This document shows, in pieces, positions 3,364 through 45,931 of a DNA stretch of 48,766 bases; the stretch's first letter is position 1, and each line of letters opens with the position of its first letter. The notes beneath the pieces are model-generated. The model was given only the letters and a program-made list of their open reading frames with translations. It was not told where the DNA came from and did not search any database. Source of the stretch: a virus. The stretch is from positions 1 through 48,766 of the IMG/VR virus record IMGVR_UViG_3300018080_000035; one strand, written 5' to 3'. Both the position numbers and the translations under genes were made by a program.

Positions 3364-5511
3364 ATGACAGATTTTCGGGAAACTGAAGAAACGCCGTACG
3401 TCATAGATGCGAACGAAGGCAACCAATTAGCGAATCAAAAGCTCTTAAAGCAGAACGAAGATACGGATGATGAACTTGAAGCGGATTCGAGAGAAGAACT
3501 TGATAAGGACACTATGGAAAAATTCGATAATCTCTGGCAGCATGCCAGGGCGTATCGAGCCGGATACTACGACAGTTTGTGGGAAGTGGTTGAACGATCT
3601 TATCTCGGTTATAAGGACTATCGTGCAGGTGCATACAATCCAGAAAAAGCGACCAATAAAGAAAAATTCCGTTCCAATCTGCGAGTATGGAACACATATA
3701 TTCAGGTTGAGTCGAGTGTTGCCGACCTGGTTCCGTCTATCCTCAACGACCCGGATTCGCTCATCTATGTCGAGCCGTCAACTTACACGCAGAATGGCAA
3801 CGACAAAGCCAACGCAGTAAAACAGCTCCTCAAGTATCAATTTCTGCAACAGATGGACGCAACTTCTCTCCTTATCGCACTGCTGAAGACAGGGGAGACG
3901 AAAGGTCTCTCCTGTCTGAAGCTATCCTACAAATACGAAACCGCCAGCAAGCTGAAACGCCGGCCGATCATGGACCCGATCACCGGTAACTGCAGAGGCT
4001 TTGTTCGTATGCGTAGAAATGAGATTCTGCACGATCGTCCCGATGTCTCCGTACCACAGATGGAAAATATCTGGTGGAACATGGACGCCACCGATCAGGA
4101 CGACTCCGTCCGGTGGGTAATCGAGAGGCAGTATTATACCAGGGACGAGATCAAGAAGCTTGGTGAAGCTGGTATCTTCCGTAACACCGAAGAATTGCTT
4201 GACAAGGTATCCCATTCGGTCATGGACTCAACAACGAAACTTCTTCGGTTGGGCCAGATGGATTTCTCGTCAAGCGAAGACCCGCTTATCGAAATCTACG
4301 AAATGTGGACCCCCACGAGACTGATCACTGGCTCGCTCGAAACCATGATCTGTCTCCGGGATACGGATAATCCGTTCGACGATCAGATTATCCCGTATTT
4401 CTTTTATCGGGCAACCCCGGTCGCCGGTGAAATGGTCGGGATAGGCCAAGTCGAGCCTATCCTCGACCTCGACGACGAATCAAACGCAAAGCGTAATCAG
4501 CGTATCGACAATATCAACAGGCAGCTCAACCAGCAGTTTCTCTCTGGTTCAGCATCCGGCATCAGAGTCAAATCCCTCCAGTTTGTCCCCTTCAACGTCA
4601 TCCAAGGAAACGACATCTCCCAATTCAAAGCACTTGAGTTCCCGGATGTCACCCAGAACGCCATGATTGAGGACGAGCGTGCCAAAGTTGATATGGATAA
4701 AACCAACGGGAATTTCGATATCGGTCGTGGCGAGCAGCCCCAGAAGACTGCCTCTGCGACTGAGATCGCAACCCGAGTTTCGCAGATGTCAGCCAGGAAA
4801 GAATTGAAGGTCAAACTTCTCCACCGTACCCTGGGCAAGGTCTGGAAAGCGATGTGGGGGCTGAATCAGCAGTTCGCCTGCACGTCAGCCATCGTGCGTG
4901 TTTCTGGGCCTGACGGTTCAAAGCTCAAGGTAGATCCAATGGCTATCTACGCTGGAGAGTATGACTTTGAATTCGGATCCGGGGGCTATATAGGCAACAA
5001 GCTGTATGACCTCCAGCAGCTCACACAGTTTCTCCAGCAGATTCTTCCTACGCCTATGGGCCAGGTGCTCGATATGCGTAAGCTGTGGGGACTGGTTTCT
5101 AAGAGATGGAATATTCCTGGGATTGAGGATTGCGTCAATCACCAGGTTATTCCGCCGCATATCGAGAAAGATCCGACTGAGGAAAATATCCAGATGTTGC
5201 TCGGTCAACAGGTCGAAGTCCTGGACGGCGAATTGCATGAAGAACACATACCGATTCATATACGCGACCTGCTGGGACCGGGCGTGTCTGACGAAACACG
5301 ACGGATAGGCACTCAGCACATCAACAACCACTACGGGAAGATGCAGGCTGTAGCACAGGCTCAGGCCGCCGCACAGCCTCAGATTCCAGCTGGGCAGCCA
5401 GGCATGCCGCCTCGCCTCGGAGGGAATGGTCCCGGAATCAATGGTGCTGTGCAAGACCTATCCAATTCAGTAACGGTAGGAGGAGCGAATGCCCCCAACA
5501 TCATGGCATGA
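3364..5511 (+). CDS. Portal protein
   Basis: 715 residues, close to the ~725 of the P22 portal. The portal is the dodecameric ring at one capsid vertex through which DNA enters and leaves. It follows terminase and precedes scaffold and capsid, the usual order. Sequence signs: an acidic N-terminus (1-60); an alpha/beta body with WNTYIQVESSVADLVPSIL near 117-135, typical of the portal stem/wing region; a long helical section with SATEIATRVSQMSARKELKVKLL near 462-484; and a Gln/Ala/Pro/Gly-rich C-terminal tail (from about 655), the sort of barrel/tail extension seen in P22-like portals. First gene after the promoter at 3290. Confidence 0.85.
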   Translation: MTDFRETEETPYVIDANEGNQLANQKLLKQNEDTDDELEADSREELDKDTMEKFDNLWQHARAYRAGYYDSLWEVVERSYLGYKDYRAGAYNPEKATNKEKFRSNLRVWNTYIQVESSVADLVPSILNDPDSLIYVEPSTYTQNGNDKANAVKQLLKYQFLQQMDATSLLIALLKTGETKGLSCLKLSYKYETASKLKRRPIMDPITGNCRGFVRMRRNEILHDRPDVSVPQMENIWWNMDATDQDDSVRWVIERQYYTRDEIKKLGEAGIFRNTEELLDKVSHSVMDSTTKLLRLGQMDFSSSEDPLIEIYEMWTPTRLITGSLETMICLRDTDNPFDDQIIPYFFYRATPVAGEMVGIGQVEPILDLDDESNAKRNQRIDNINRQLNQQFLSGSASGIRVKSLQFVPFNVIQGNDISQFKALEFPDVTQNAMIEDERAKVDMDKTNGNFDIGRGEQPQKTASATEIATRVSQMSARKELKVKLLHRTLGKVWKAMWGLNQQFACTSAIVRVSGPDGSKLKVDPMAIYAGEYDFEFGSGGYIGNKLYDLQQLTQFLQQILPTPMGQVLDMRKLWGLVSKRWNIPGIEDCVNHQVIPPHIEKDPTEENIQMLLGQQVEVLDGELHEEHIPIHIRDLLGPGVSDETRRIGTQHINNHYGKMQAVAQAQAAAQPQIPAGQPGMPPRLGGNGPGINGAVQDLSNSVTVGGANAPNIMA

Positions 5512-11416: not shown

Positions 11417-11811
11417 CATTACCGATACCCGAATGGCCAAGACGAGATCCCCAGTGGCGAGGGGCATACGACTATACGATTCCGCAGGAATCCGTAACTA
11501 TCGGTGCTGGTGGATACACCGATGTCGAGATTGATGCCGGCGTGATAAACTTCATCTATCGGTTGAGGCTTACGCCGACAAATCCAGTGGGTTATTCCGC
11601 TGCTATTTACAGCAGGAACGCCCGTGAAGATGACGACTTGATGTGGCGGCTTGCTTCACGGATAACCGCATATAACAGCCTGGATGAAGGCAGTGGGCTT
11701 ATCCTGGCTCTAAACAAGGACCAGGTAGCCGACTCGGCTATGCATTTCAGAATCTTCGGCACTCCTGCTGAAGTGGTTGCTGTTGATGCTGACTTAGTGA
11801 GGCTGATATGA
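11413..11811 (+). CDS. Unknown beta-rich structural-region protein
   Basis: 132 residues, ATGA overlap with the previous stop. Predicted beta sandwich-like; starts MTLPIPEWPRRDPQWRGAYD. No family recognised. Confidence 0.7.
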   Translation: MTLPIPEWPRRDPQWRGAYDYTIPQESVTIGAGGYTDVEIDAGVINFIYRLRLTPTNPVGYSAAIYSRNAREDDDLMWRLASRITAYNSLDEGSGLILALNKDQVADSAMHFRIFGTPAEVVAVDADLVRLI

Positions 11812-12053
11812 TCAAACTCATCCAATATGTCAAACAAAACGATCACCGGCCGGGGATGGTCGGCAAGGTGATCAATGCCAAGAACCCGAATTTCCAGTTC
11901 TCGGAACGCGAGCTGGCAAATGCGGGATGGCCGGTTATCTTCGGATACTTCACGCTGGATATCAGCGGAGATGAAGTCGTTCTATGTGATGCTGGCAGGC
12001 GGGCTGTCAACGACATAGAGAATCCAACGGAACTTGTTGCGATAGGAGATTGA
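11808..12053 (+). CDS. Unknown small protein
   Basis: 81 residues, ATGA overlap with the previous gene. Mixed alpha/beta, no known motif. Begins MIKLIQYVKQN. Confidence 0.65.
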   Translation: MIKLIQYVKQNDHRPGMVGKVINAKNPNFQFSERELANAGWPVIFGYFTLDISGDEVVLCDAGRRAVNDIENPTELVAIGD

Positions 12054-12054
12054 A

Positions 12055-12183
12055 ATGGGAAGAAATGCAAGAGGCGTGAGAACTGGTGACGGGCCGTATA
12101 AGGGTTCATTTCAGCGGAAAAAGACCGGGAGTCGCGGCAGACGGAAGCTGGCCGGTCAGAAGTGTCCGAAAGGAAGTAAGTGA
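12055..12183 (+). CDS. Very basic 42-residue protein
   Basis: The ATG at 12055 follows TAGGAGA by six bases. The 42-residue product is about one third Arg+Lys with many Gly and one Cys (ends QKCPKGSK). It starts one base after the previous stop. Small basic proteins of this kind may bind nucleic acid or pack into virions; the family is not recognised. Confidence 0.65.
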   Translation: MGRNARGVRTGDGPYKGSFQRKKTGSRGRRKLAGQKCPKGSK

Positions 12184-12220
12184 CGGAACATCGAGACAGC
12201 CGAAACGTAGGAGATAATCC

Positions 12221-15200
12221 TTGGCATCAGAAGTCATAAAAATTGTAGACCCGGACAATGGGCCGGGAACCGACTATTTAAGCCTGCTGGCTTTTGAAGC
12301 CGGTGAACGGCGTGACCTTGTGGCGGCTGATGAGATTGCCGTGGCCGAAGTCCGTTCTTCCGGTACGCCCGACAAGACGAATGAAGTGGATTTCGATTCG
12401 GCCAACTGGACGACCGATTCCACGCGGTACATTCATGTCAGACCGTATGCCGGTCAGGAACATGCCGGTGTATGGGATGCCACCAAGTATGTCAAGCAGC
12501 CCAACAACAACCAGAAGAATATCATATCAGATGTTGATATCAAGATTGAAGGTATTCAGTTTGAAACAGTCACCACGGATACCAAGATACAGGAATCGAT
12601 TGTTCTCGGTGGAAACGTGGCAAATAAGCGTCAGTATCTTAACCGGTGTTTGATACGGTTAAACGAAAGTGGCACGATTGATTCATCACAACAAGCTGTT
12701 TCGCTGGTTGGAACAAACACCACTATTAGAACATATATCACGAACAATATTATTTACGATTGGAAAGACCAGACAGGTACGCATGAACTTCCTGCTTTTG
12801 GACCGACCCATATCTTCAATTACATGTATAACAATACGGTTGTCAACTGCGGAAGCGGCATTGGCAGTCTCAGTAGTCGCAGATACGCTTATAATAATAT
12901 CGTACAGAATACGACAGGCGATAATTATTATGGTGATTTCAATGCAACCTCCTATAACAATCTGTCCGATGATGGTACGGCTCCTGGCAACGACCCGATT
13001 ACCGGAAGCGTACTATTCGTCAATGCGGCGGCGAAAGACTTTCACCTTTCGTTGACGGACACGGTTGCCAAGGGAGCAGGGAGAAGGTCATTCTCACCGG
13101 ACTATGAGAACTTCTATGACGTTGACGGATACCCACGATTCTTTCCGATGGACTGCGGAGCAGACCAGGCCCTTGACAATACGAAGTGGAAGGTGTGGGG
13201 CGGCGGTTCGAGCATGGACGGCAACTTTAATACGGCGACATGCTGGACAGGCGACAGCGTACCGACATCTACGGATTACATCCTGTTCAACGGAACCGAT
13301 GTAACCGACTGCACGATTGACGCTGATGTTGACGTGGGTGGAATGGCTGCTGATTGGAATTATACCGGTACGGTGGACAATTCCGTCAACAACAAGGACA
13401 TCACAATCAGAGGACCGATATCCGTCAAAGGCGACGATGCCGCACCCCATTTTGATTGGGGAGCTAACTGCGATTTCAACTGGACGGGAACATACTGGTT
13501 TGTTGAAAATGCCGACACATGGGTCATGCCGTCTACGGTCAGTCTTGTCATAACCGGTGACGGCTCTACACAACATTTAATGCGGCACACCTATATGACA
13601 TGGAATGAACGGCTTGGACATATCAAGGCTACTGATGCTCCATTGTATCTTGAATACATGAACTCCTGTAACGGTTTGACGCTAAGAAATTCTCCGATAA
13701 CAAGCCCTAATGTTTCGTTGAGTAATTGGGGAGTGCTTGACCAGGATGCGGATAGTCCTATTGATATCGGTACGGCGATTATGAGTCCGGTTTGTGGTGG
13801 CAATCCGACACAGAAAGCCGCTGCGATAAATGCGTCCTATATCAAAGCGTCTGCCGGTAAAGATAACTGGCCTGCTCTGACATGGGAATCTCCATTCGAG
13901 TTTACATGGGGGTGGAGTGAAGAACTGTATCTCGGAGCCGGTGAACATTGGTTCCAGCAGGGTATTCATTACCTGCATAATACGACGACTGCGGGTGAAC
14001 TGGATAATTCCAAATACAATCCGAGTTTTCGCATAGGTGGAACCGGAACCGGCCTTGAGGTGTCGGACGACAATGTAGGCGGCCTTACCGTCACAAAGGG
14101 AACAGGCTCTATCACGATGGACGGTGAGGATCAGTTTATCAAGCTGGACGGCAAGAGCGTTGAGCCGATTGACAACTCAAGCGGCACAGGCACATTCGAG
14201 ATCATGGAGGACGGCACAGCGGATCTCGACCTTGGAGAGAGGACAGATGACATCATCGGAACCGCAGGGATTACCTTCAACTCACCGAACATTGTTGCCA
14301 AAGGACTCGCTCTCGATAACCTCAGAGGATTCAAGAGCGATACGCCTGCTTCGGATTGGACTCTGGTTATTGCCACTTCTTACGACTTTCTGTACCTTGA
14401 TGTTATTGATAACGATGTTACCGGATCATTCGAGATTATTGACGGTGGAAGTTCCTATTGCCGTGACCTGGGGAATAACACTAACTGGACTTTCGATTAC
14501 CTTATCAAGAAGGATGGAACGGCGTTCTACACAACTCTCGCCGCCGCTATTGCCGCTCTGCCAGCTACGCTTATTGCAGATACATCAATCCTCTTCCTTG
14601 ACAGGGAGCGATACGAAGAAGTGAATACGCTGTCCGGTGTGGATACCAACGGATTCACATTGACTATAGACGGCCTTGGAGACGAAGGTGTTCCTGGAAC
14701 CGGCAAGACGACTCTTTATCATGCGACAACAGCCGGATATCTGCTGACTATTACCAGCATGAAGAACGTCACGATAACCGATATCGAGTTTGAGCGAGAG
14801 GAAGCATTGGACGATTCGCGTCATGGCATTGACATTGACGGAAACAACATTGATGAGATTGTGATTGACCGGTGTGACTTCAGGGGTAACGGTTATTATC
14901 CGCAACAGGGTATCTACTGGAACACGAATCAATCTGGTTATGCCGGACATCTGTTTGTTCGTAACTGTCTGTTCCGGCGTTGGGGTAAAGCAGGTATCCA
15001 GTTTGTAAACGGCGGTTCTACATACAACGAAAACTTCACCAGCTACTACAACACCTTTGTCAAGAATCAGGAAGCGATACAGTATGATGGTTCATCTTCC
15101 AACAAGGGATGGGTAAAAGGCAAGAATAATATCTTCGACATGGACGGTGATGAACTCATCGAATGTACCTACTTTGCCGCATGGTATTTTTCGACGAACG

Positions 15201-35203: not shown

Positions 35204-35932
35204 TTATCCAATACGGTTAAATACTTCGGACCAATCCTGGTCCATATTCGGCTTCGGCAACTTGCCGTACCTGTCTTTGGCTGGATACCGGATACTCTTT
35301 TCGGTTCTCCAGCGGTAGATTGTCTTTTTATCCTTTGTCCCGGTCTCGGAATACAGGATAATATCGAACTCTCTCTCTACCGTTGTTCTGAGCTGGCCAG
35401 TGATGGACGGCCTGCGGATAACAACACCGTCATCCTCATCCTTCTCGTCCCTAGTATGGCAAGTGATAATCACCCGCTTCTCCATATTCTTGATGAACAT
35501 GATGAACGACACCATTCTGTTCATGGCCGCCGTCCATTCATACTGGGACATCTCATCCTCGTGCTTGTTCATCTTTTTCAGGATATCCTTCTTCGCCCAC
35601 CGATTGGCCTCGGTCAGGCTGTCTATGAAGATGGTCTTAACCTCGTCTTTCTTGGCCAGCCTGCCCAGGATGTTACTCAAATCCTGCCAGTCGTATGCCC
35701 TCACGATATTCAGTTTACTGATATCGCTTGCCTGCGACAGGGTTGCGATGCCTCTTTCGCAGTCAATGAAGACCGAGCTGTCCAGGTCCGGCAGGCTCAG
35801 GAACGACATGGTTTTGCCAGTCCCTGATTCTCCGATGAGGAACGCGGATATCCAGTCGGAATTCGACAGCTTGTTCGGGTCCACGTATCCTGGACCAAAC
35901 TCGGCTTTCAGCATATCTTTAATGATGCTCAT
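35204..35932 (-). CDS. Sak4-like RecA-family ATPase
   Basis: 242 residues. Walker A GESGTGKT at 34-41, Walker B KTIFIDSLTE (about 99-108), TCHTRDEKDED and later R-P-S-I-T-G-Q-L and YRWRTEK-type end; pattern of AAA_24/Sak4 single-strand annealing or RecA-like proteins of phages. It would promote annealing with the SSB-like neighbour. Overlaps the CobT-like gene by 4 bp. Confidence 0.8.
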   Translation of the reverse strand: MSIIKDMLKAEFGPGYVDPNKLSNSDWISAFLIGESGTGKTMSFLSLPDLDSSVFIDCERGIATLSQASDISKLNIVRAYDWQDLSNILGRLAKKDEVKTIFIDSLTEANRWAKKDILKKMNKHEDEMSQYEWTAAMNRMVSFIMFIKNMEKRVIITCHTRDEKDEDDGVVIRRPSITGQLRTTVEREFDIILYSETGTKDKKTIYRWRTEKSIRYPAKDRYGKLPKPNMDQDWSEVFNRIG

Positions 35933-37626
35933 GCAGTCTCCTTTCGCAACATCAATTCTTCCAGCTTTGTGATGAAAATACCTGCTAACCTACCATTTAC
36001 AGCATCACCCCTTCCTAAGTTAACGGTTTTTGTTCTGTGTATCCATTCCGCACGGAGCATCTCGATGAGGAACGCATACACCTCAATGCCCATCTGATTG
36101 GCAATATCCACTGCGACGCTGCTGCCGGATCCGTCTATTCCGCCATGGTTGCCCATGCATTGCATTGAACGTTGGCCGCCTGCTACAGTCGGTTCACCAT
36201 CAGTCAGCAGGAATATGATTTTCCGCTTCTGCTGCAGATTCACCATCTTTCCTGCCGCGTACATTATCGCATAGGCGATCGGCGTACCACCGACGGACTG
36301 GATCTGGATACCGGACAGATACTGCTCGTCGAAATCCTTATAATCGACCATTTGACTCTCACCATAGGTGTAGAAGCTCGATATGGCGAACGGTATGCCA
36401 AGGCTGGTCATGGCCCCAGCCAACTCCACGCCTCCATAGGTCGCTCCTACAGCCTTGTCTCCCATCATGGAGGCTGACGCATCCACGAGCAGATACACGG
36501 CTAGATTGAGCCTCTGATGGATTGTGGGAGCCAACAACACCTTGTCTGTGGTTCCCGCTATCCAACCAGCCAGGTTTCGCTTATCCACCTTCCGTCCTCT
36601 CTTATCCGGCATCTTGGATTCCAGAGAACTTACTTCCAGCAGACGTTTGATCCTGTGGGCTCTCTTTCTGCCGATATCATAATGGAGCTTCAGCTCCGGC
36701 TCAGTCTTGACATTTTGTGCAGACCCTTTCTTGACAGAGGTTCTGTCCACTTTGGCCATGGATTTCTTGGCGGATTCTATTTCACGTGATACTCTCAGAT
36801 CCACGTTCTTACCCTGTCCATTCAGGGCATCACGCACCCGGCCGGACGCCGTGTTGGTCCCTTGGTGATTCCCAAGGACGCTGTTAGCTCCTCCATGGAG
36901 TTCCTGCTGTTCCACTTCCAGTTTCTCACGGCCTTCCTGTATCTTCTTCCTGTTCTCACGCCTGAGTTTCGGGCTGTCTACGATGGTCCTGGCTGCATTC
37001 GGGTCTTCACCCATCTTGACCAGGGCTGCGACATCAATGGTCTTATTCAGTATCTCCTTTCGTTTCACGGTGTTGACCGTATCGGTTTTCCTGAATTCCT
37101 CCATGTAATCCTCGACCGCGTTTCCGATGTCCTTCTTACCGATAGTGACATCCAGGCTGGAATTGGCATAGAGACCTTCCAGCATATCCATGATGACCGA
37201 ATCCTTGAACTTCTGCGAAGCCTGGGAATTCGGATCATTCCGGGTATCATAGATACCCTGGATATTCTTCTCGATATTGATTTTCGAGCCCTCGAACCGA
37301 TCGGTCATCAGCTCATCACACCGGACATCTTCCATGACGTTATTGAACTCTCGTTCCAGGTTGTCAAAGGTCTTGTCAATGGCAGGCGTATGGAGGATAT
37401 GACTGACTTCATGGTCAATCATTCCACGAACTTCGACCATGCCCTCTTCATTTACCGGGAGGGGCACGAACAGAACGTGCTCACCGCTGCCATCAATGGA
37501 TACTTTCGGGGAACCAATTTCCAGCTTGAGATTGGCAGTCTGTCCCAGAACTGCCGCTGTGTCTCTTATTATAGCCTTTATTATATGCGTGTCAATTTCA
37601 ATCTTCTTTGTCTTCTTCATCGACAT
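35929..37626 (-). CDS. CobT-like VWA-domain protein
   Basis: 565 residues from the ATG at 37626 (GGAAAGGCGG upstream; ATG at 37620 also possible). N-terminal: HEVSH at about 72-76 then F-N-N-V-M-E-D-V-R-C-D-E, an HExxH-like pattern found in CobT-type proteins. A charged central linker (about 200-360) follows. The C-terminal VWA domain has MIDAS motifs D-A-S-A-S at 382-386, GGTP at 446-449 and TDGEP at 475-479. In bacteria CobT works with the AAA+ CobS in cobalt insertion; in phages the role is not established. It overlaps the CobS-like gene by 29 bp. Confidence 0.8.
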   Translation of the reverse strand: MSMKKTKKIEIDTHIIKAIIRDTAAVLGQTANLKLEIGSPKVSIDGSGEHVLFVPLPVNEEGMVEVRGMIDHEVSHILHTPAIDKTFDNLEREFNNVMEDVRCDELMTDRFEGSKINIEKNIQGIYDTRNDPNSQASQKFKDSVIMDMLEGLYANSSLDVTIGKKDIGNAVEDYMEEFRKTDTVNTVKRKEILNKTIDVAALVKMGEDPNAARTIVDSPKLRRENRKKIQEGREKLEVEQQELHGGANSVLGNHQGTNTASGRVRDALNGQGKNVDLRVSREIESAKKSMAKVDRTSVKKGSAQNVKTEPELKLHYDIGRKRAHRIKRLLEVSSLESKMPDKRGRKVDKRNLAGWIAGTTDKVLLAPTIHQRLNLAVYLLVDASASMMGDKAVGATYGGVELAGAMTSLGIPFAISSFYTYGESQMVDYKDFDEQYLSGIQIQSVGGTPIAYAIMYAAGKMVNLQQKRKIIFLLTDGEPTVAGGQRSMQCMGNHGGIDGSGSSVAVDIANQMGIEVYAFLIEMLRAEWIHRTKTVNLGRGDAVNGRLAGIFITKLEELMLRKETA

Positions 37627-38485
37627 CCGCCTTTCCTTTGGCCTTACCGGTACGCAGGTCGATACCCATAACTCTCTGGATAATTTCAACTACTGTACCC
37701 TTGTCGGCCTCTTCAATTTTGTTGAGGATCGAGACATCCAGAGCCGTTTTGAATGCACTCTTGCCCTGCATTCCCAGCTTCTCGAACGCCATCATATTTT
37801 CTACAAGAGATACCAACCTCCTGGTGGAAAACAGGATAGCAGTCTCGCCCTTTGCATTGGACTTACGAATCATATTGGCGATCTCTACGAGCGTTTTCGC
37901 ATCCTCATCATCCAGCTCTTTACCGAATCTGCCCTGCAACGCTGCCTGCTCTGCCTTGGGCTTGAGATACGTCAGCTTGACGGTCGCAGCGAATCTGTCC
38001 AGGAATGCCTGATTCATCACCTGGGTGCCTGCATACATGCCTTCGCTGTCGCCAATGCCTGCGGTATTGTCAGTGCAGCAGAGGCAGAAACCGGGCTGGG
38101 GTGCTACCTCCTCACGCTCATTCTCAGTCAGCACGATCCTGCCATCCTCTTCAAGGACAAAGTGCAGGGCGAACAGGATCCCTGGATTGACCGCTGATAT
38201 CTCATTCACAACCAGGATACTTCCCTCCCTGGCTGCATGAGGAAGCAGTCCATCAACCCATTCGATCTCTCCTTTCTCGGCTGTCTTATAGCCAAGGAAG
38301 TCGTCCGGCCTGATCTCAGTATGCCCTGAGATTTCGTAGTGCTTGCGGCCCAGGTCGTTTGCGATCTGCCTGAACAGCTCAGACTTACCGCAACCGGTGT
38401 CCCCGTAACAATACACGGGACGACCTCTCTCAACAAGGTCTTTGACATAATCATATTCTGTAGGTTTCTCATAATTACCGATCAT
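37598..38485 (-). CDS. CobS/MoxR-like AAA+ ATPase
   Basis: 295 residues. Walker A GDTGCGKS at 28-35; E-I-S-G-H-T-E-I-R-P-D-D-F-L-G (about 51-65), the CobS/MoxR 'substrate loop'; Walker B LVVNEI at 91-96, with Asn in place of the usual Asp; sensor-1-like C-C-T-D-N-T-A-G (about 135-142); S-T-R-R-L-V (sensor 2 region) near 220. Ribosome site AAAGGAGCGAGTAA. With the adjoining VWA protein it forms the usual AAA+/VWA pair. Confidence 0.85.
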   Translation of the reverse strand: MIGNYEKPTEYDYVKDLVERGRPVYCYGDTGCGKSELFRQIANDLGRKHYEISGHTEIRPDDFLGYKTAEKGEIEWVDGLLPHAAREGSILVVNEISAVNPGILFALHFVLEEDGRIVLTENEREEVAPQPGFCLCCTDNTAGIGDSEGMYAGTQVMNQAFLDRFAATVKLTYLKPKAEQAALQGRFGKELDDEDAKTLVEIANMIRKSNAKGETAILFSTRRLVSLVENMMAFEKLGMQGKSAFKTALDVSILNKIEEADKGTVVEIIQRVMGIDLRTGKAKGKADVDEEDKED

Positions 38486-40356: not shown

Positions 40357-40738
40357 CTTTGTCTTCCTCCTCATTGGTTATGCCAAACGTAGTGCGGGCC
40401 AGCCCCACGACTGCCGCTACATCGTTCAGCCCTTTCTCGAATATGGCTTCCTCTATACTATGACCGGATCCTGTCTGCTTGAGCCGTGTCTTCAAGAACG
40501 GCGTGATACGTTCCAATTTCACCAGCTGATCCTTGGTCAGCGTGATCTCCATGTATTCCCTGTAGTCATCACGCATGGAGTCAGCCAGCCTGTCGGCCCG
40601 TCGATCGCCTCTCTTGATGGCCTTCTCGATCTCTTCGCAGCGTTGAATTTCCTGCTTGGATGGCGGCTCTTCAGTCACCATATTCTTTCCCGGCTGTACC
40701 TTGTCCGGGATATCCTTCTTGATATCAGACAGCTTCAT
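40232..40738 (-). CDS. Charged protein with acidic tail (MKLSD start)
   Basis: 168 residues from the ATG at 40738 (GAGGAGAAA upstream), begins MKLSDIKKD, near the MKLL signature. Helical middle (about 30-120), then a very acidic tail (E/D-rich from about 122) that overlaps the Lys-rich start of the next gene by 125 bp. No family recognised. Confidence 0.65.
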   Translation of the reverse strand: MKLSDIKKDIPDKVQPGKNMVTEEPPSKQEIQRCEEIEKAIKRGDRRADRLADSMRDDYREYMEITLTKDQLVKLERITPFLKTRLKQTGSGHSIEEAIFEKGLNDVAAVVGLARTTFGITNEEEDKDDEEEKEEGREDLKDVEDDDKEEKDNCSTCDPFAEPDEEED

Positions 40739-41151
40739 TTTCTCCTCTCCTCGCAATACGGACAGTATTTGTCCTGGTTTACACGGCCGAATGTTCTGCA
40801 TTTAATGCAGTACCCTTTCTGCCATCTGCCTCCTTTCTCTGGATTAACCAATTTGTACCAGCAGTTCTTGCACATGACTACGCCGGCTTCCTGTTCTTCA
40901 TTGGGCAGCTCTTTGCCGCATTCCTTGCAGCGTATCTGTTTTTTTTCAAGGCCACGCCTGTGCCTCCTCGCCACTTCTCTCGGCTTCGCGTCTGGATGGA
41001 GCTTACGCCAGTATATCGCTGCATAGATTCGATTGCATTCCTTTTTCGCTTCTCCCTTGCAATACCAGCCTACAGTGCCGTCAAGGGCTTTCTTCCGTCC
41101 CTTGACCAGCTGGTCCGGCTCCATTTCCCTTTCGCATCTCTTGCATATCAT
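40735..41151 (-). CDS. Multi-zinc-ribbon protein
   Basis: 138 residues from the ATG at 41151 (GAAAGG upstream; ATG at 41172 is also possible). C3-x2-C6, C31...C39, C75-x2-C78, C94-x2-C97, C115-x2-C118, C130-x2-C133 indicate three zinc sites. The section between has a D-G-T-V-G-W-Y-C motif. Function unknown; may bind nucleic acid. Confidence 0.7.
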   Translation of the reverse strand: MICKRCEREMEPDQLVKGRKKALDGTVGWYCKGEAKKECNRIYAAIYWRKLHPDAKPREVARRHRRGLEKKQIRCKECGKELPNEEQEAGVVMCKNCWYKLVNPEKGGRWQKGYCIKCRTFGRVNQDKYCPYCEERRK

Positions 41152-41464
41152 TTTCCAACGCCTTTCCGACATCTCTTGGGTCCATTGTATGTTTCTCATA
41201 CAGTTCCTTGAATGCCATCCAACGCTCCTGCCACCGGTCTGCCGTCGTGCAGTGCCTTGGGCTGTCCGGATGCTTCTCTGCAGCAATCCGGTACGCATTA
41301 GCCCTCTTCTCCAGGTAGAACCGAAGGTCTTCCAGTGGTGTAGCGTGCTGCTTCATCCCGCAATACGGACAGTACCGGAAAGTGGGGATGACCATGAGGC
41401 TACACTTGGGGCAGTTGGTGGCAGCGTTGGCAGCGTCAGAGGGGAAAAATGGTTTCTCACTCAT
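41081..41464 (-). CDS. Zinc-ribbon and helical protein
   Basis: 127 residues. Ribbon C18-x2-C21 / C32-x2-C35 (N-C-P-K-C and Y-C-P-Y-C), then helices. The ATG overlaps the previous stop and uses the AAGGAGTCCA junction described for this cluster. Confidence 0.7.
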   Translation of the reverse strand: MSEKPFFPSDAANAATNCPKCSLMVIPTFRYCPYCGMKQHATPLEDLRFYLEKRANAYRIAAEKHPDSPRHCTTADRWQERWMAFKELYEKHTMDPRDVGKALENDMQEMRKGNGAGPAGQGTEESP

Positions 41465-41604
41465 GGCTTGGACTCCTTATTTTTTCTTTCCTTATACTGT
41501 CTTTTGCACTCTTGACAAGACGGGTCTAAATTTCCGGCAAAGCAAACTCCACCTTCTATAATTGCAGGACATTCTTCTTTTTTCTTTTTGTATTTTCTTT
41601 TCAT
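41461..41604 (-). CDS. 47-residue Lys/Cys-rich protein
   Basis: Frame ATG 41604 to TGA 41461-41463. Starts with a Lys run (MKRKYKKKKEE), then four cysteines and C-Q-E-C. AAGGAGGCCACGGA before the ATG; its own end supplies K-E-S-K-P-stop and the next ribosome site. Confidence 0.65.
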   Translation of the reverse strand: MKRKYKKKKEECPAIIEGGVCFAGNLDPSCQECKRQYKERKNKESKP

Positions 41605-41843
41605 TCCGTGGCCTCCTTGTTAATCTGCTGTTCAATTTCTTTGTCAGGACATCGTCCACACCAGTCAATATCACCGTTCCAGTTGTATTTCAAAAAGTAC
41701 AATAAATCGCGGGTATCTATCGTAATCGTCCCGCAGTTGGCTCTGGTCGGCGTCTCCCAGATTACGCCAGGCGTCCCCCTATCAAATAGGGTAAAACAGG
41801 TATGCCGTTCGTTGCTCTCTATACACGTTAGTTTATAGTTCAT
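41601..41843 (-). CDS. Small protein with Cys knuckle
   Basis: 80 residues: beta-rich (TCIESNERHTCFTLFD), then LLYFLKYNWNGDIDWCGRCPD. Start uses AAGGAGTCCACGCC; ends K-E-A-T-E. No family recognised. Confidence 0.7.
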   Translation of the reverse strand: MNYKLTCIESNERHTCFTLFDRGTPGVIWETPTRANCGTITIDTRDLLYFLKYNWNGDIDWCGRCPDKEIEQQINKEATE

Positions 41844-42160
41844 GGCGTGGACTCCTTTCTGATAGCGTCTACTGATTGAGGATTATCCCATCCAAATAAG
41901 TTAAAGGCATCCTCTATATCACGCATACCACCCGTCATATATGCAACAACCTTGCCTTTGTCTACTTTTTTATGGCAATACTGGAGTGTAAAATCCATTA
42001 GCAACTCCCTCAACTCCACGTTGTCCTGCATGGCCTTGTCAAGGTGCTGTTGGAGTTGCTTGTTCTCCGCTTCAAGCTCCTTTCGCTTTTCAAGTTCATC
42101 GTGATATGATTTTGCATATGTTGCTGCTGCCTGTCCTGCATCTGTTCCCTTCTCTTTCAT
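41840..42160 (-). CDS. Coiled-coil protein
   Basis: 106 residues. Coiled-coil (about 18-60) then a folded end. Start uses AAGGAGTCCACGGA; ends K-E-S-T-P. No family recognised. Confidence 0.65.
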   Translation of the reverse strand: MKEKGTDAGQAAATYAKSYHDELEKRKELEAENKQLQQHLDKAMQDNVELRELLMDFTLQYCHKKVDKGKVVAYMTGGMRDIEDAFNLFGWDNPQSVDAIRKESTP

Positions 42161-42360
42161 TCCGTGGACTCCTTAACGATTGACTCTACCCATTTGATAC
42201 CCTTGGTATCTTCATGTTTTCTCCATAAAAAATTGTCACCGAATTGTGACTTCCTATCTTGATATTCTTCCCAGAGTAACTCCAATGCACCGAACAGAAT
42301 CTTTTTTTTCAGTGCATTCTGTACCGATGTTTCAGGGGTGACTTTGCTTTCTTCATTCAT
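42157..42360 (-). CDS. Small helical protein
   Basis: 67 residues. Contains A-L-E-L-L-W-E-E-Y-Q-D-R and a W-R-K-H-E-D end. Start uses AAGGAGTCCACGGA; ends K-E-S-T-E. No family recognised. Confidence 0.65.
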   Translation of the reverse strand: MNEESKVTPETSVQNALKKKILFGALELLWEEYQDRKSQFGDNFLWRKHEDTKGIKWVESIVKESTE

Positions 42361-42395
42361 TCCGTGGACTCCTTATCTAAGTAGATATCACACAT
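42357..42395 (-). CDS. 12-codon peptide gene ending KESTE
   Basis: MCDIYLDKESTE then stop. The ATG overlaps the previous gene's TAA (TAATG), with GGAGAAG upstream; the end carries the ribosome site and start of the next gene. It may be a translation-coupling leader or a shortened gene. Confidence 0.4.
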   Translation of the reverse strand: MCDIYLDKESTE

Positions 42396-42643
42396 TATAG
42401 TTCTTCTCCACAATTTTTACATACTGTCGGGTTGGACACATGCCTCAATTGCTCCAGAGAAGCCCGTAGAGCCTCTATGCGGCCTTTTGAGCATGAGATG
42501 GCCTCGATGGCACCATCACCGGCCTCGGCATCTTTATAGGCCTCTGAGAGGCTTATTTCGGCTAATTCGAGCTGGCTTGCCATCCAATCATGGTACTCCT
42601 GGAGCGTCATTGTCTTTCTTGTATCACTGATTCCTTTGTACAT
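42395..42643 (-). CDS. Helical protein with C-terminal Cys pair
   Basis: 82 residues. Amphipathic helices (EYHDWMASQLELAEISLSEA) and C-K-N-C-G at 76-80. No clear Shine-Dalgarno: the ATG lies within the 3' end of the previous gene. Confidence 0.65.
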   Translation of the reverse strand: MYKGISDTRKTMTLQEYHDWMASQLELAEISLSEAYKDAEAGDGAIEAISCSKGRIEALRASLEQLRHVSNPTVCKNCGEEL

Positions 42644-42908: not shown

Positions 42909-43236
42909 TTTTGTCTTCCTGGTCTTCTGGGTCAGGTGAGGGCTTTGACACGCCTTGTACGCCTCCTAATTGGCTCAGATCGCATAATTTGGTTATGGTT
43001 CCCTGGGCCTCTTTTACCGATTTCATCAGTTCTGCCAGTGTCGTGATCTCTCCGGCACTGACCTTATCCCTCAACATCCTGTTCATTATGTCCTGCATGG
43101 CATAGACGAGCTGTGAATAGAAGAACACTGCTTCTCTGTTCTTTCCTGTCTTCTTGTTTATCTTGTCAGCCTTTATGACAACTATCCATTGTGAGCTGTC
43201 TGCTTTTATGGCATATTTGTCGGTTATGTCAATCAT
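42883..43236 (-). CDS. Unknown helical protein
   Basis: 117 residues, ATGA overlap with the previous gene. Helical core (about 25-90) with an acidic Pro/Asp/Glu tail. Begins MIDITDKYAIKAD. No family recognised. Confidence 0.7.
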   Translation of the reverse strand: MIDITDKYAIKADSSQWIVVIKADKINKKTGKNREAVFFYSQLVYAMQDIMNRMLRDKVSAGEITTLAELMKSVKEAQGTITKLCDLSQLGGVQGVSKPSPDPEDQEDKNEAPEERT

Positions 43237-43865
43237 CGGTCTATCTCCTTACACAGCAGCTTTATCTGTTGAAACGCCTTCTCTGAGGCGACGAATGCGG
43301 CTTTATACTGCCTGCTCTTGCTCGCCTGACGCATGAGCTGCTGCGTCTGCTTTGCGATCCGTGCTATTTTCTCGGACGGTTTGCTGACGAATTCGTGACC
43401 GCATTCAGGACAGAACGGTGTAATCCTCTGCATCTTTACCCCGCAGTGAAGGCAGGATAGCTCGAAGCCGTTCTCCTCCCAGTGGATAGGAGGTTCTGTC
43501 TTCCTGGGCTCTGTCTTGCTTCTGCCCACGATGACTGTTCTCTTTTTCCTCTTGTTGTAGGAGACTGTATACAATCCAAGGGTTACCAGACACCGTTTGC
43601 ACGTAACCAGGCCGGTATCAGTGGTTCCAAGGATGATACCCACATTCTTCTTGAGCATGCAGCCCTTGCATGTCAATCCTATCTTGTCCTGAAACTGGTT
43701 ACGGACATGATGGATGGATCTCGGGCTGCTGACCACCGGCTGCCCATGGAACAACCGGTACATGTACTTGTCGGGAATATGGGTTTCATTCTCTTTTGTA
43801 ACCATAATGAAATCAACTATGTTCCCTTCAACTTCAGCTATTTTTGTGGTTGTTGGCTGTACCAT
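43233..43865 (-). CDS. Multi-zinc-ribbon protein
   Basis: 210 residues from the ATG at 43865 (AAAGGAGCGAGTG upstream; an ATG 11 codons earlier would start MKLK but lacks this site). C66-x2-C69/C89-x2-C92 and C138-x2-C141/C152-x2-C155 form two ribbons. Basic C-terminal helix. Function unknown. Confidence 0.7.
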   Translation of the reverse strand: MVQPTTTKIAEVEGNIVDFIMVTKENETHIPDKYMYRLFHGQPVVSSPRSIHHVRNQFQDKIGLTCKGCMLKKNVGIILGTTDTGLVTCKRCLVTLGLYTVSYNKRKKRTVIVGRSKTEPRKTEPPIHWEENGFELSCLHCGVKMQRITPFCPECGHEFVSKPSEKIARIAKQTQQLMRQASKSRQYKAAFVASEKAFQQIKLLCKEIDR

Positions 43866-44016
43866 CACTCGCTCCTTTGTTAGAATTTTCAATTTCAATC
43901 AGGTCAGTTCCACCGCAGCACGGACATCCCGGTTCGGAGTCCGACCGCGGTGCTTCCAGCTCATCTTCCGGGAATATGTCTCCACAGCACATGCACTGCA
44001 GGTATTGGATTACCAT
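43834..44016 (-). CDS. Small zinc-ribbon protein
   Basis: 60 residues with C-M-C-C-G (8-12) and C-P-C-C-G-G-T-D-L (about 31-39). CAGGAGAAAAGT before the ATG. First gene after the extended -10 promoter at 44055. Confidence 0.75.
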   Translation of the reverse strand: MVIQYLQCMCCGDIFPEDELEAPRSDSEPGCPCCGGTDLIEIENSNKGASDGTANNHKNS

Positions 44017-44130: not shown

Positions 44131-44172
44131 ATTAAATAAAAAAATAGACAGACAGGGCTCTTTCGAGCCCCA
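44131..44172 (-). terminator. Leftward terminator-like hairpin
   Basis: GGGCTC-TTTC-GAGCCC (44155-44170) with a U-run on the minus strand (complement of AAATAAAAAAA) beginning about 10 bases after the stem. It ends the transcript of the gene at 44189; a new promoter follows. Confidence 0.6.
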
Positions 44173-44188
44173 TCCATCCGGTAGTGAT

Positions 44189-44927: not shown

Positions 44928-44964
44928 TAAAAAGTAAACCCAGGCCGGCCGAAGCCAGCCCGGG
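44928..44964 (-). terminator. Leftward terminator
   Basis: CCCAGGCCGGCC...GCCAGCCCGGG (44939-44964); on the minus strand followed by TTTACTTTTT. It lies after the gene at 44975. Confidence 0.7.
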
Positions 44965-44974
44965 TCTTACCAAG

Positions 44975-45194: not shown

Positions 45195-45217
45195 AAAAAG
45201 GGGGCTTTCGCCCCCTG
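45195..45217 (-). terminator. Leftward terminator after the first early gene
   Basis: GGGGGC-TTTC-GCCCCC (45200-45215), with TTTTTAC on the minus strand after the stem. Lies six bases past the stop at 45222. Confidence 0.8.
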
Positions 45218-45464: not shown

Positions 45465-45663
45465 TTCACTACCTCCTTGGGCGAGTGCCCGTGTTGTGGT
45501 ATATGCTCCGGTGGCCCTAGCGGGCCGATAACCGGATGGTGAGACATGGTGGGAATTTGGTGGAAGAGGTAATAGCGAGTAGATATAGGGATAAGGGAGG
45601 ATATATAAGCTAATATATAACCCCCCTACCCTTAGAAGGTTAAGCTAGCTAACTATATATTAC

Positions 45664-45773
45664 CCTAGATAAATTTGTGATACTTTATATATCCTAGTTT
45701 ACTCTAGATAATCCTAGATAATCCTAGATAAACTAGATAATCTAGTGGGTTTATTTCATAACCCAAGATAATC
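45664..45773. repeat. CTAGATAA iteron array
   Basis: CTAGATAATC-type 10-mers at 45665 (8-mer), 45704, 45714, 45724, 45733 (with 10-bp spacing for the first three) and a degenerate copy at 45764; further copies at 45859 and (TAGATAA) near 45878. Helical phasing suggests protein binding along one DNA face. Confidence 0.75.
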
Positions 45774-45815
45774 TAATATAATTTTTATTATTTTATTATT
45801 ATTTTATTATTATTC
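45774..45815. other. A+T-only tract, possible DNA-unwinding element
   Basis: A long (TTATTATT)-type run of A and T only, between the iterons and the dyad. Such tracts often mark where origin DNA opens. Confidence 0.4.
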
Positions 45816-45820
45816 ATAAC

Positions 45821-45853
45821 CCAATATATCCCTGGTTAACCAGGTTATATTGG
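45821..45853. repeat. 33-bp dyad with 14-bp palindrome
   Basis: CCTGGTTAACCAGG is a perfect palindrome (45831-45844), flanked by CCAATATA and TATATTGG arms. It may bind a dimeric protein or form a hairpin. Confidence 0.75.
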
Positions 45854-45931
45854 ATATACTAGATAAACTAGGTTATATAGATAAGGAAATATTGTTCCAA
45901 TACGGGGAAAGAAATTTATTTTTTTCTCGTA

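Follow-up and report, generated by a model that had tools for sequence, protein, structure and literature searches.

Five consecutive small genes in the leftward early operon of an uncultivated phage probably start from one initiation element, a private start-associated repeat. The repeated word, AAGGAGTCCACGGAATGA, occurs in five copies in the window (the whole viral contig that was analyzed, 48,766 bases), all of them on the minus strand, and joins five successive genes as the original prediction had proposed (Table 1). Its reading as K-E-[SA]-[TK]-[EP]-stop in the upstream frame and the predicted start positions were also found to be correct when sequence and translation were checked. The array is located near the upstream part of the operon, which encodes a DnaB-like helicase, a RusA-like resolvase, a Sak4-like annealing protein, and a MoxR-type ATPase; the plus strand carries podovirus-like late genes (terminase, portal, and major head protein). 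The best reading of the array is a private, translationally coupled start element of the early operon that resembles the Start Associated Sequences (SAS) of mycobacteriophages.

Table 1. Copies of the start word and genes of the array in the window.
Feature	Position	Strand	Description
Upstream small gene	42395..42643	-	82 aa, no family; ends before the minigene
Minigene MCDIYLDKESTE	42357..42395	-	12 codons; sequence and translation; presumably translated in vivo
Repeat copy 1	42357..42374	-	AAGGAGTCCACGGAATGA, 0 mismatches; start of gene 42360
Array gene	42157..42360	-	67 aa, no accepted family, no phage homologue
Repeat copy 2	42157..42174	-	AAGGAGTCCACGGAATGA, 0 mismatches; KESTE end / ATGA / start of gene 42160
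Array gene	41840..42160	-	106 aa, coiled-coil-like, no accepted family, no phage homologue
Repeat copy 3	41840..41857	-	AAGGAGTCCACGCCATGA, 2 mismatches; KESTP end / ATGA / start of gene 41843
Array gene	41601..41843	-	80 aa, no family; no homologue in phages or viral contigs
Repeat copy 4	41601..41618	-	AAGGAGGCCACGGAATGA, 1 mismatch; KEATE end / ATGA / start of gene 41604
Array gene	41461..41604	-	47 aa, lysine- and cysteine-rich, no family
Repeat copy 5	41461..41478	-	AAGGAGTCCAAGCCATGA, 3 mismatches; KESKP end / ATGA / start of gene 41464
Last array gene	41081..41464	-	127 aa; weak N-terminal zinc-ribbon match, below Pfam cut-off

The edges of the repeat are sharp. When the copies were aligned on their start codons, about five of five letters agreed over exactly 18 bases, and agreement was near background (2.5 of 5) on both flanks. 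Dinucleotide-shuffled versions of the window contained 0.11 matches to the 18-mer on average and never reached five. All five copies share the pattern AAGGAG.CCA.G..ATGA, in which the Shine-Dalgarno sequence lies within the upstream gene at a constant distance of 8 bases from the ATG. Four of these 8 spacer letters (CCA and one G) do not vary among the copies, and the others mostly agree, so that the likeness extends beyond the AAGGAG core. With the Shine-Dalgarno sequence and ATG held fixed, an equally tight family of spacers arose in 221 of 200,000 simulations (~1 in 900), a figure that assumes a generous 60 starts and leaves the adjacency of the five copies out of the count. The substitutions among copies exchange TCC for GCC (S/A), ACG for AAG (T/K), and GAA for CCA (E/P). 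Every one of them alters the KESTE peptide; selection on the peptide was therefore rejected, and what appears to have been conserved is a DNA or RNA word. Comparison of the proteins encoded between the copies with one another revealed no significant likeness beyond the common tail, in agreement with their earlier description as unrelated.

The junctions have the anatomy of coupled gene pairs. Four of the five are ATGA stop/start overlaps of 4 bases, and here the preceding gene carries the KESTE-type end expected from the original prediction. This does not hold at copy 1, where the sizeable gene 42643-42395 has already terminated at a TAA (42397-42395) and it is the minigene that ends in KESTE. 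The ATG of the minigene (42395-42393) shares one base with this TAA, forming TAATG, and its TGA overlaps the ATG of the following gene in a further ATGA, so the chain of overlaps along the run is unbroken. Predicted folding at all five starts was not stronger than in shuffled sequences (z +0.5 to +1.9), which suggests that the start sites are open; an RNA hairpin as the shared element was rejected, as folding prediction gave none common to the five starts.

In bacteria and archaea, ribosomes that terminate at ATGA overlaps with a Shine-Dalgarno sequence in the upstream gene are known to restart on the downstream gene (PMC6728339), and a minigene placed directly upstream of a gene can act in cis to raise its translation (PMC8708949). 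Together with the unstructured starts, these precedents make a standard joint for initiation and coupling the best reading of the 18-mer. Stop/start overlaps, Shine-Dalgarno sequences within genes, and a chain of small genes are features that the array has in common with ATGA-coupled pairs and with the nin genes of phage lambda. The lambda nin junctions were not borne out as a precedent for a shared word, their spacers differing from one another.

The proposed element would consist of the Shine-Dalgarno sequence AAGGAG, a fixed 8-base spacer, the ATG, and the A that completes the ATGA overlap. A ribosome ending one gene would halt at the TGA with its 16S rRNA already above AAGGAG and could then restart at the overlapping ATG, while the minigene would carry the reinitiation chain over the one gap. 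Reinitiation at the junctions is what we infer from the sequence, and a Shine-Dalgarno sequence of this strength could also initiate without coupling. Translational coupling, as claimed in the original prediction, is nevertheless likely, as it fits the four ATGA overlaps, the minigene bridge, the in-gene Shine-Dalgarno sequence at 8 bases, and the unstructured starts. The simplest source of the common spacer would be copying of a junction within the lineage as small genes accreted, the copied junction afterwards being retained at a working spacing. In-lineage copying is suggested by copies 3 and 5, which both carry the same CC variant, and the five short copies may well descend from one junction. 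Selection by a bound factor would look the same as junction copying, and the common spacer may derive from copying within the lineage, from such a factor, or from both.

The word is private to the window virus as far as the searched collections show. Among viral contigs the exact 18-mer was found in one contig, and the word with two free letters matched 26 stretches with a single match in each; at three mismatches, one re-searched contig contained a second, looser match. A search of viral contigs with AAGGAGTCCACGNNATGA likewise returned single matches only. In genome contigs (257 Gb) the 18-mer was observed 7 times vs. 7.5 expected, the latter being arithmetic for 257 Gb with equal base use. 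The database search for the 18-mer that had been suggested originally thus yielded single, scattered matches at chance level. No relatives of the cassette and early proteins that were searched were found in phage records or viral contigs. The terminase as a lone query returned one relative (25% identity), and an alignment of terminases returned 80 with up to 40% identity on partial matches; none of 22 contigs that encode such terminases (22-37% identity over the best segments) contained the word. That phages do not appear to have the word in common leaves two options, copying within the lineage or regulators private to each virus.

Start-associated repeats have so far been described from two actinobacterial phage groups, without an assigned function. 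Cluster K mycobacteriophages (TM4, Anaya, Pixie) contain 11-19 copies of a 13-bp SAS, GGGATAGGAGCCC, where small non-structural genes belonging to unrelated families start, mostly after gaps of >50 bp. The distance from the SAS to the start varies between 3 and 7 bp, and about half of the copies have upstream 17-bp inverted repeats, termed ESAS (PMC3203893). Cluster EF Microbacterium phages (AnnaSerena) have a sequence, GGGAAAGGACCCC, that is unusually well conserved and occupies the ribosome-binding position in ten copies (PMC7302621). Function was left open in both papers (PMC3203893, PMC7302621).

Like the cluster K SAS, the window word is an asymmetric repeat that includes the Shine-Dalgarno sequence and stands directly at the start codon, occurs in a single orientation (5/5 minus) at small non-structural genes, is absent from other phages and genomes apart from chance-level single matches, and has conserved letters that play no part in 16S rRNA pairing (the spacer CCA and G). 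A well-conserved word at the ribosome-binding position is also the point of resemblance to the cluster EF motif, although that word is a different one, with a linked upstream ESAS in intergenic gaps. Unlike the cluster K SAS, the window word is 18 bp long with the ATG and stop included, and its five copies form one contiguous run. Gaps wider than 50 bp are missing, since the junctions consist of four 4-base overlaps and a minigene, and the copies do not agree upstream of the 18-mer, i.e., there is no upstream inverted repeat. The word itself differs from both SAS consensuses. Because it lacks these three SAS features, the array is considered SAS-like and was not filed as SAS. What is new here is a compact, overlap-coupled form of start-associated repeat in an unrelated, uncultivated phage.

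A survey of private start words covered 73 contigs (1.9 million bases) consisting of terminase relatives and chance hits to the word, a non-random sample from which no frequency is claimed. The survey counted starts having in common a 13-mer with no more than one mismatch and at least six letters outside the Shine-Dalgarno sequence; one column-permuted version of each contig provided the null, and TM4, with its published SAS, the positive control. This strict test, validated on TM4, replaced a first scoring that added up weak similarities and was dropped. The score was nine starts for TM4, four each for the window and contigs G003 and G028, and three for five contigs, and the column-permuted null was never above two. 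Clustered runs of private words were found in G003 (IMGVR_UViG_3300032401_001427), which is the clearest case, and in G002 and G035. The G003 word, AAGGACAT..TATCATG, is present in five copies at 11.8-14.7 kb, and among viral contigs it has multiple copies in G003 alone. At positions 11775-14736 of this contig, where small genes follow one another, five of the starts carry the private word as AAGGACATTTTATCATG / AAGGACATCATATCATG. The clustered words GGAGAGGTGACA and AAGAGGAGACTC were seen in G002 (3885-4480) and G035 (~3700-4910), at three or four neighboring small genes. Words in G028, G022, G016, and G026 are dispersed and may reflect either chance or a style of ribosome site used throughout the phage.

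The principal alternative to a copied coupling joint is that the 18 bases act as a recombination seam, a short homology at which cassettes of small genes are gained, lost, or exchanged with reading and coupling intact. We regard this as improbable, though it is the rival that survives best. Unrelated genes between near-identical, sharp-edged junctions are what a seam would leave, and the phage encodes both a Sak4-like annealing protein and a RusA-like resolvase. A precedent is offered by the cluster O mycobacteriophages (Corndog), which contain 17-bp repeats, many of them between genes and about a third inside genes; gain or loss of genes between these repeats has been documented in single cases, e.g., Corndog gene 14 (PMC4351075). 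These repeats are short, as is the window word, and a few border gained or lost genes; unlike the window word, they are built of two 7-bp inverted motifs and are not bound to start codons, and their authors concluded that few if any rearrangements overall involve them (PMC4351075).

Five cluster K genomes were compared as a proxy, with homology breakpoints scored at SAS starts and at control starts. Breakpoints were found in 92/280 SAS start comparisons (33%), 177/680 tight non-SAS starts (26%), and 18/176 wide-gap non-SAS starts (10%), counts that are not independent. SAS sites coincided with breakpoints far more often than random positions did, but this excess shrank against the gene-start controls and is small relative to ordinary tight junctions. 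A weak excess is the fair reading, and the repeated start word of cluster K is thus only weakly a preferred seam. In the window virus, cassette exchange is unproven: neither the word nor the genes searched were found elsewhere beyond chance matches, and no relative displays a swap.

Somewhat less probable than a seam is a regulon, in which the word in mRNA (or DNA) is bound by a protein or RNA, of either phage or host origin, that controls the five genes jointly. The conservation of spacer letters that have no 16S pairing role is the argument that was used for SAS (PMC3203893), and words that differ between viruses are what private regulators would yield. A bound factor must be reconciled, however, with up to three changes tolerated among the 8 spacer letters. 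Also against a regulon, antisense matches of at least 8 bases over the Shine-Dalgarno/spacer joint in the rest of the genome were limited to chance-level 8- and 9-mers, the five starts have no hairpin in common, and a search of Rfam gave no match.

The array and the private words in a few further contigs suggest that the phenomenon recurs and that the word itself is not common to phages. In a broader conjecture, to which we give slightly less weight than to the regulon, many phages would have arrived independently at a start word of their own and spread it by copying among junctions. Small genes entering an early operon would then be inserted at this standard cassette joint, which the annealing recombination of the phage itself would build and which would supply the stop, the ribosome site, and the start all at once.

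Tandem gene duplication, with gene bodies that diverged until only the junctions were still alike, is very unlikely. Start signals repeated head to tail are to be expected from it, but the proteins range from 47 to 127 aa with no likeness beyond the common tail, and agreement stops at the edge of the 18-mer. Least credible of all is ordinary convergence, in which chance, together with selection for good initiation, would have made five strong ribosome-binding sites resemble one another. Starts with AAGGAG and a 6-8 base spacer are frequent across the window genome, but the other AAGGAG starts with 8-base spacers have unrelated, mostly A-rich ones, the array spacer was not seen at non-array starts of the genome or in many unrelated phages, and both the rarity of so tight a family in simulation and the survey null argue against it.

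Several further features of the early region were observed. The MoxR/CobS-like ATPase gene is followed directly by a gene with a partial CobT-like match (35929-38485), with Sak4 adjoining; the two may constitute a chaperone-like ATPase pair of the replication operon. Early proteins encoded at 40735-41187, 41081-41464, and 43233-43898 have weak zinc-ribbon matches under the Pfam cut-offs. The head of the leftward operon, which lies on the upstream side of the array, has three strong, terminator-like minus-strand hairpins with T tails (44936-44967, 44146-44179, and 45199-45216). Near the turn between the opposing gene groups, an AT-rich non-coding stretch (45637-45880) contains repeated CTAGATAA units; it is iteron- or operator-like and is possibly an origin or early control region.
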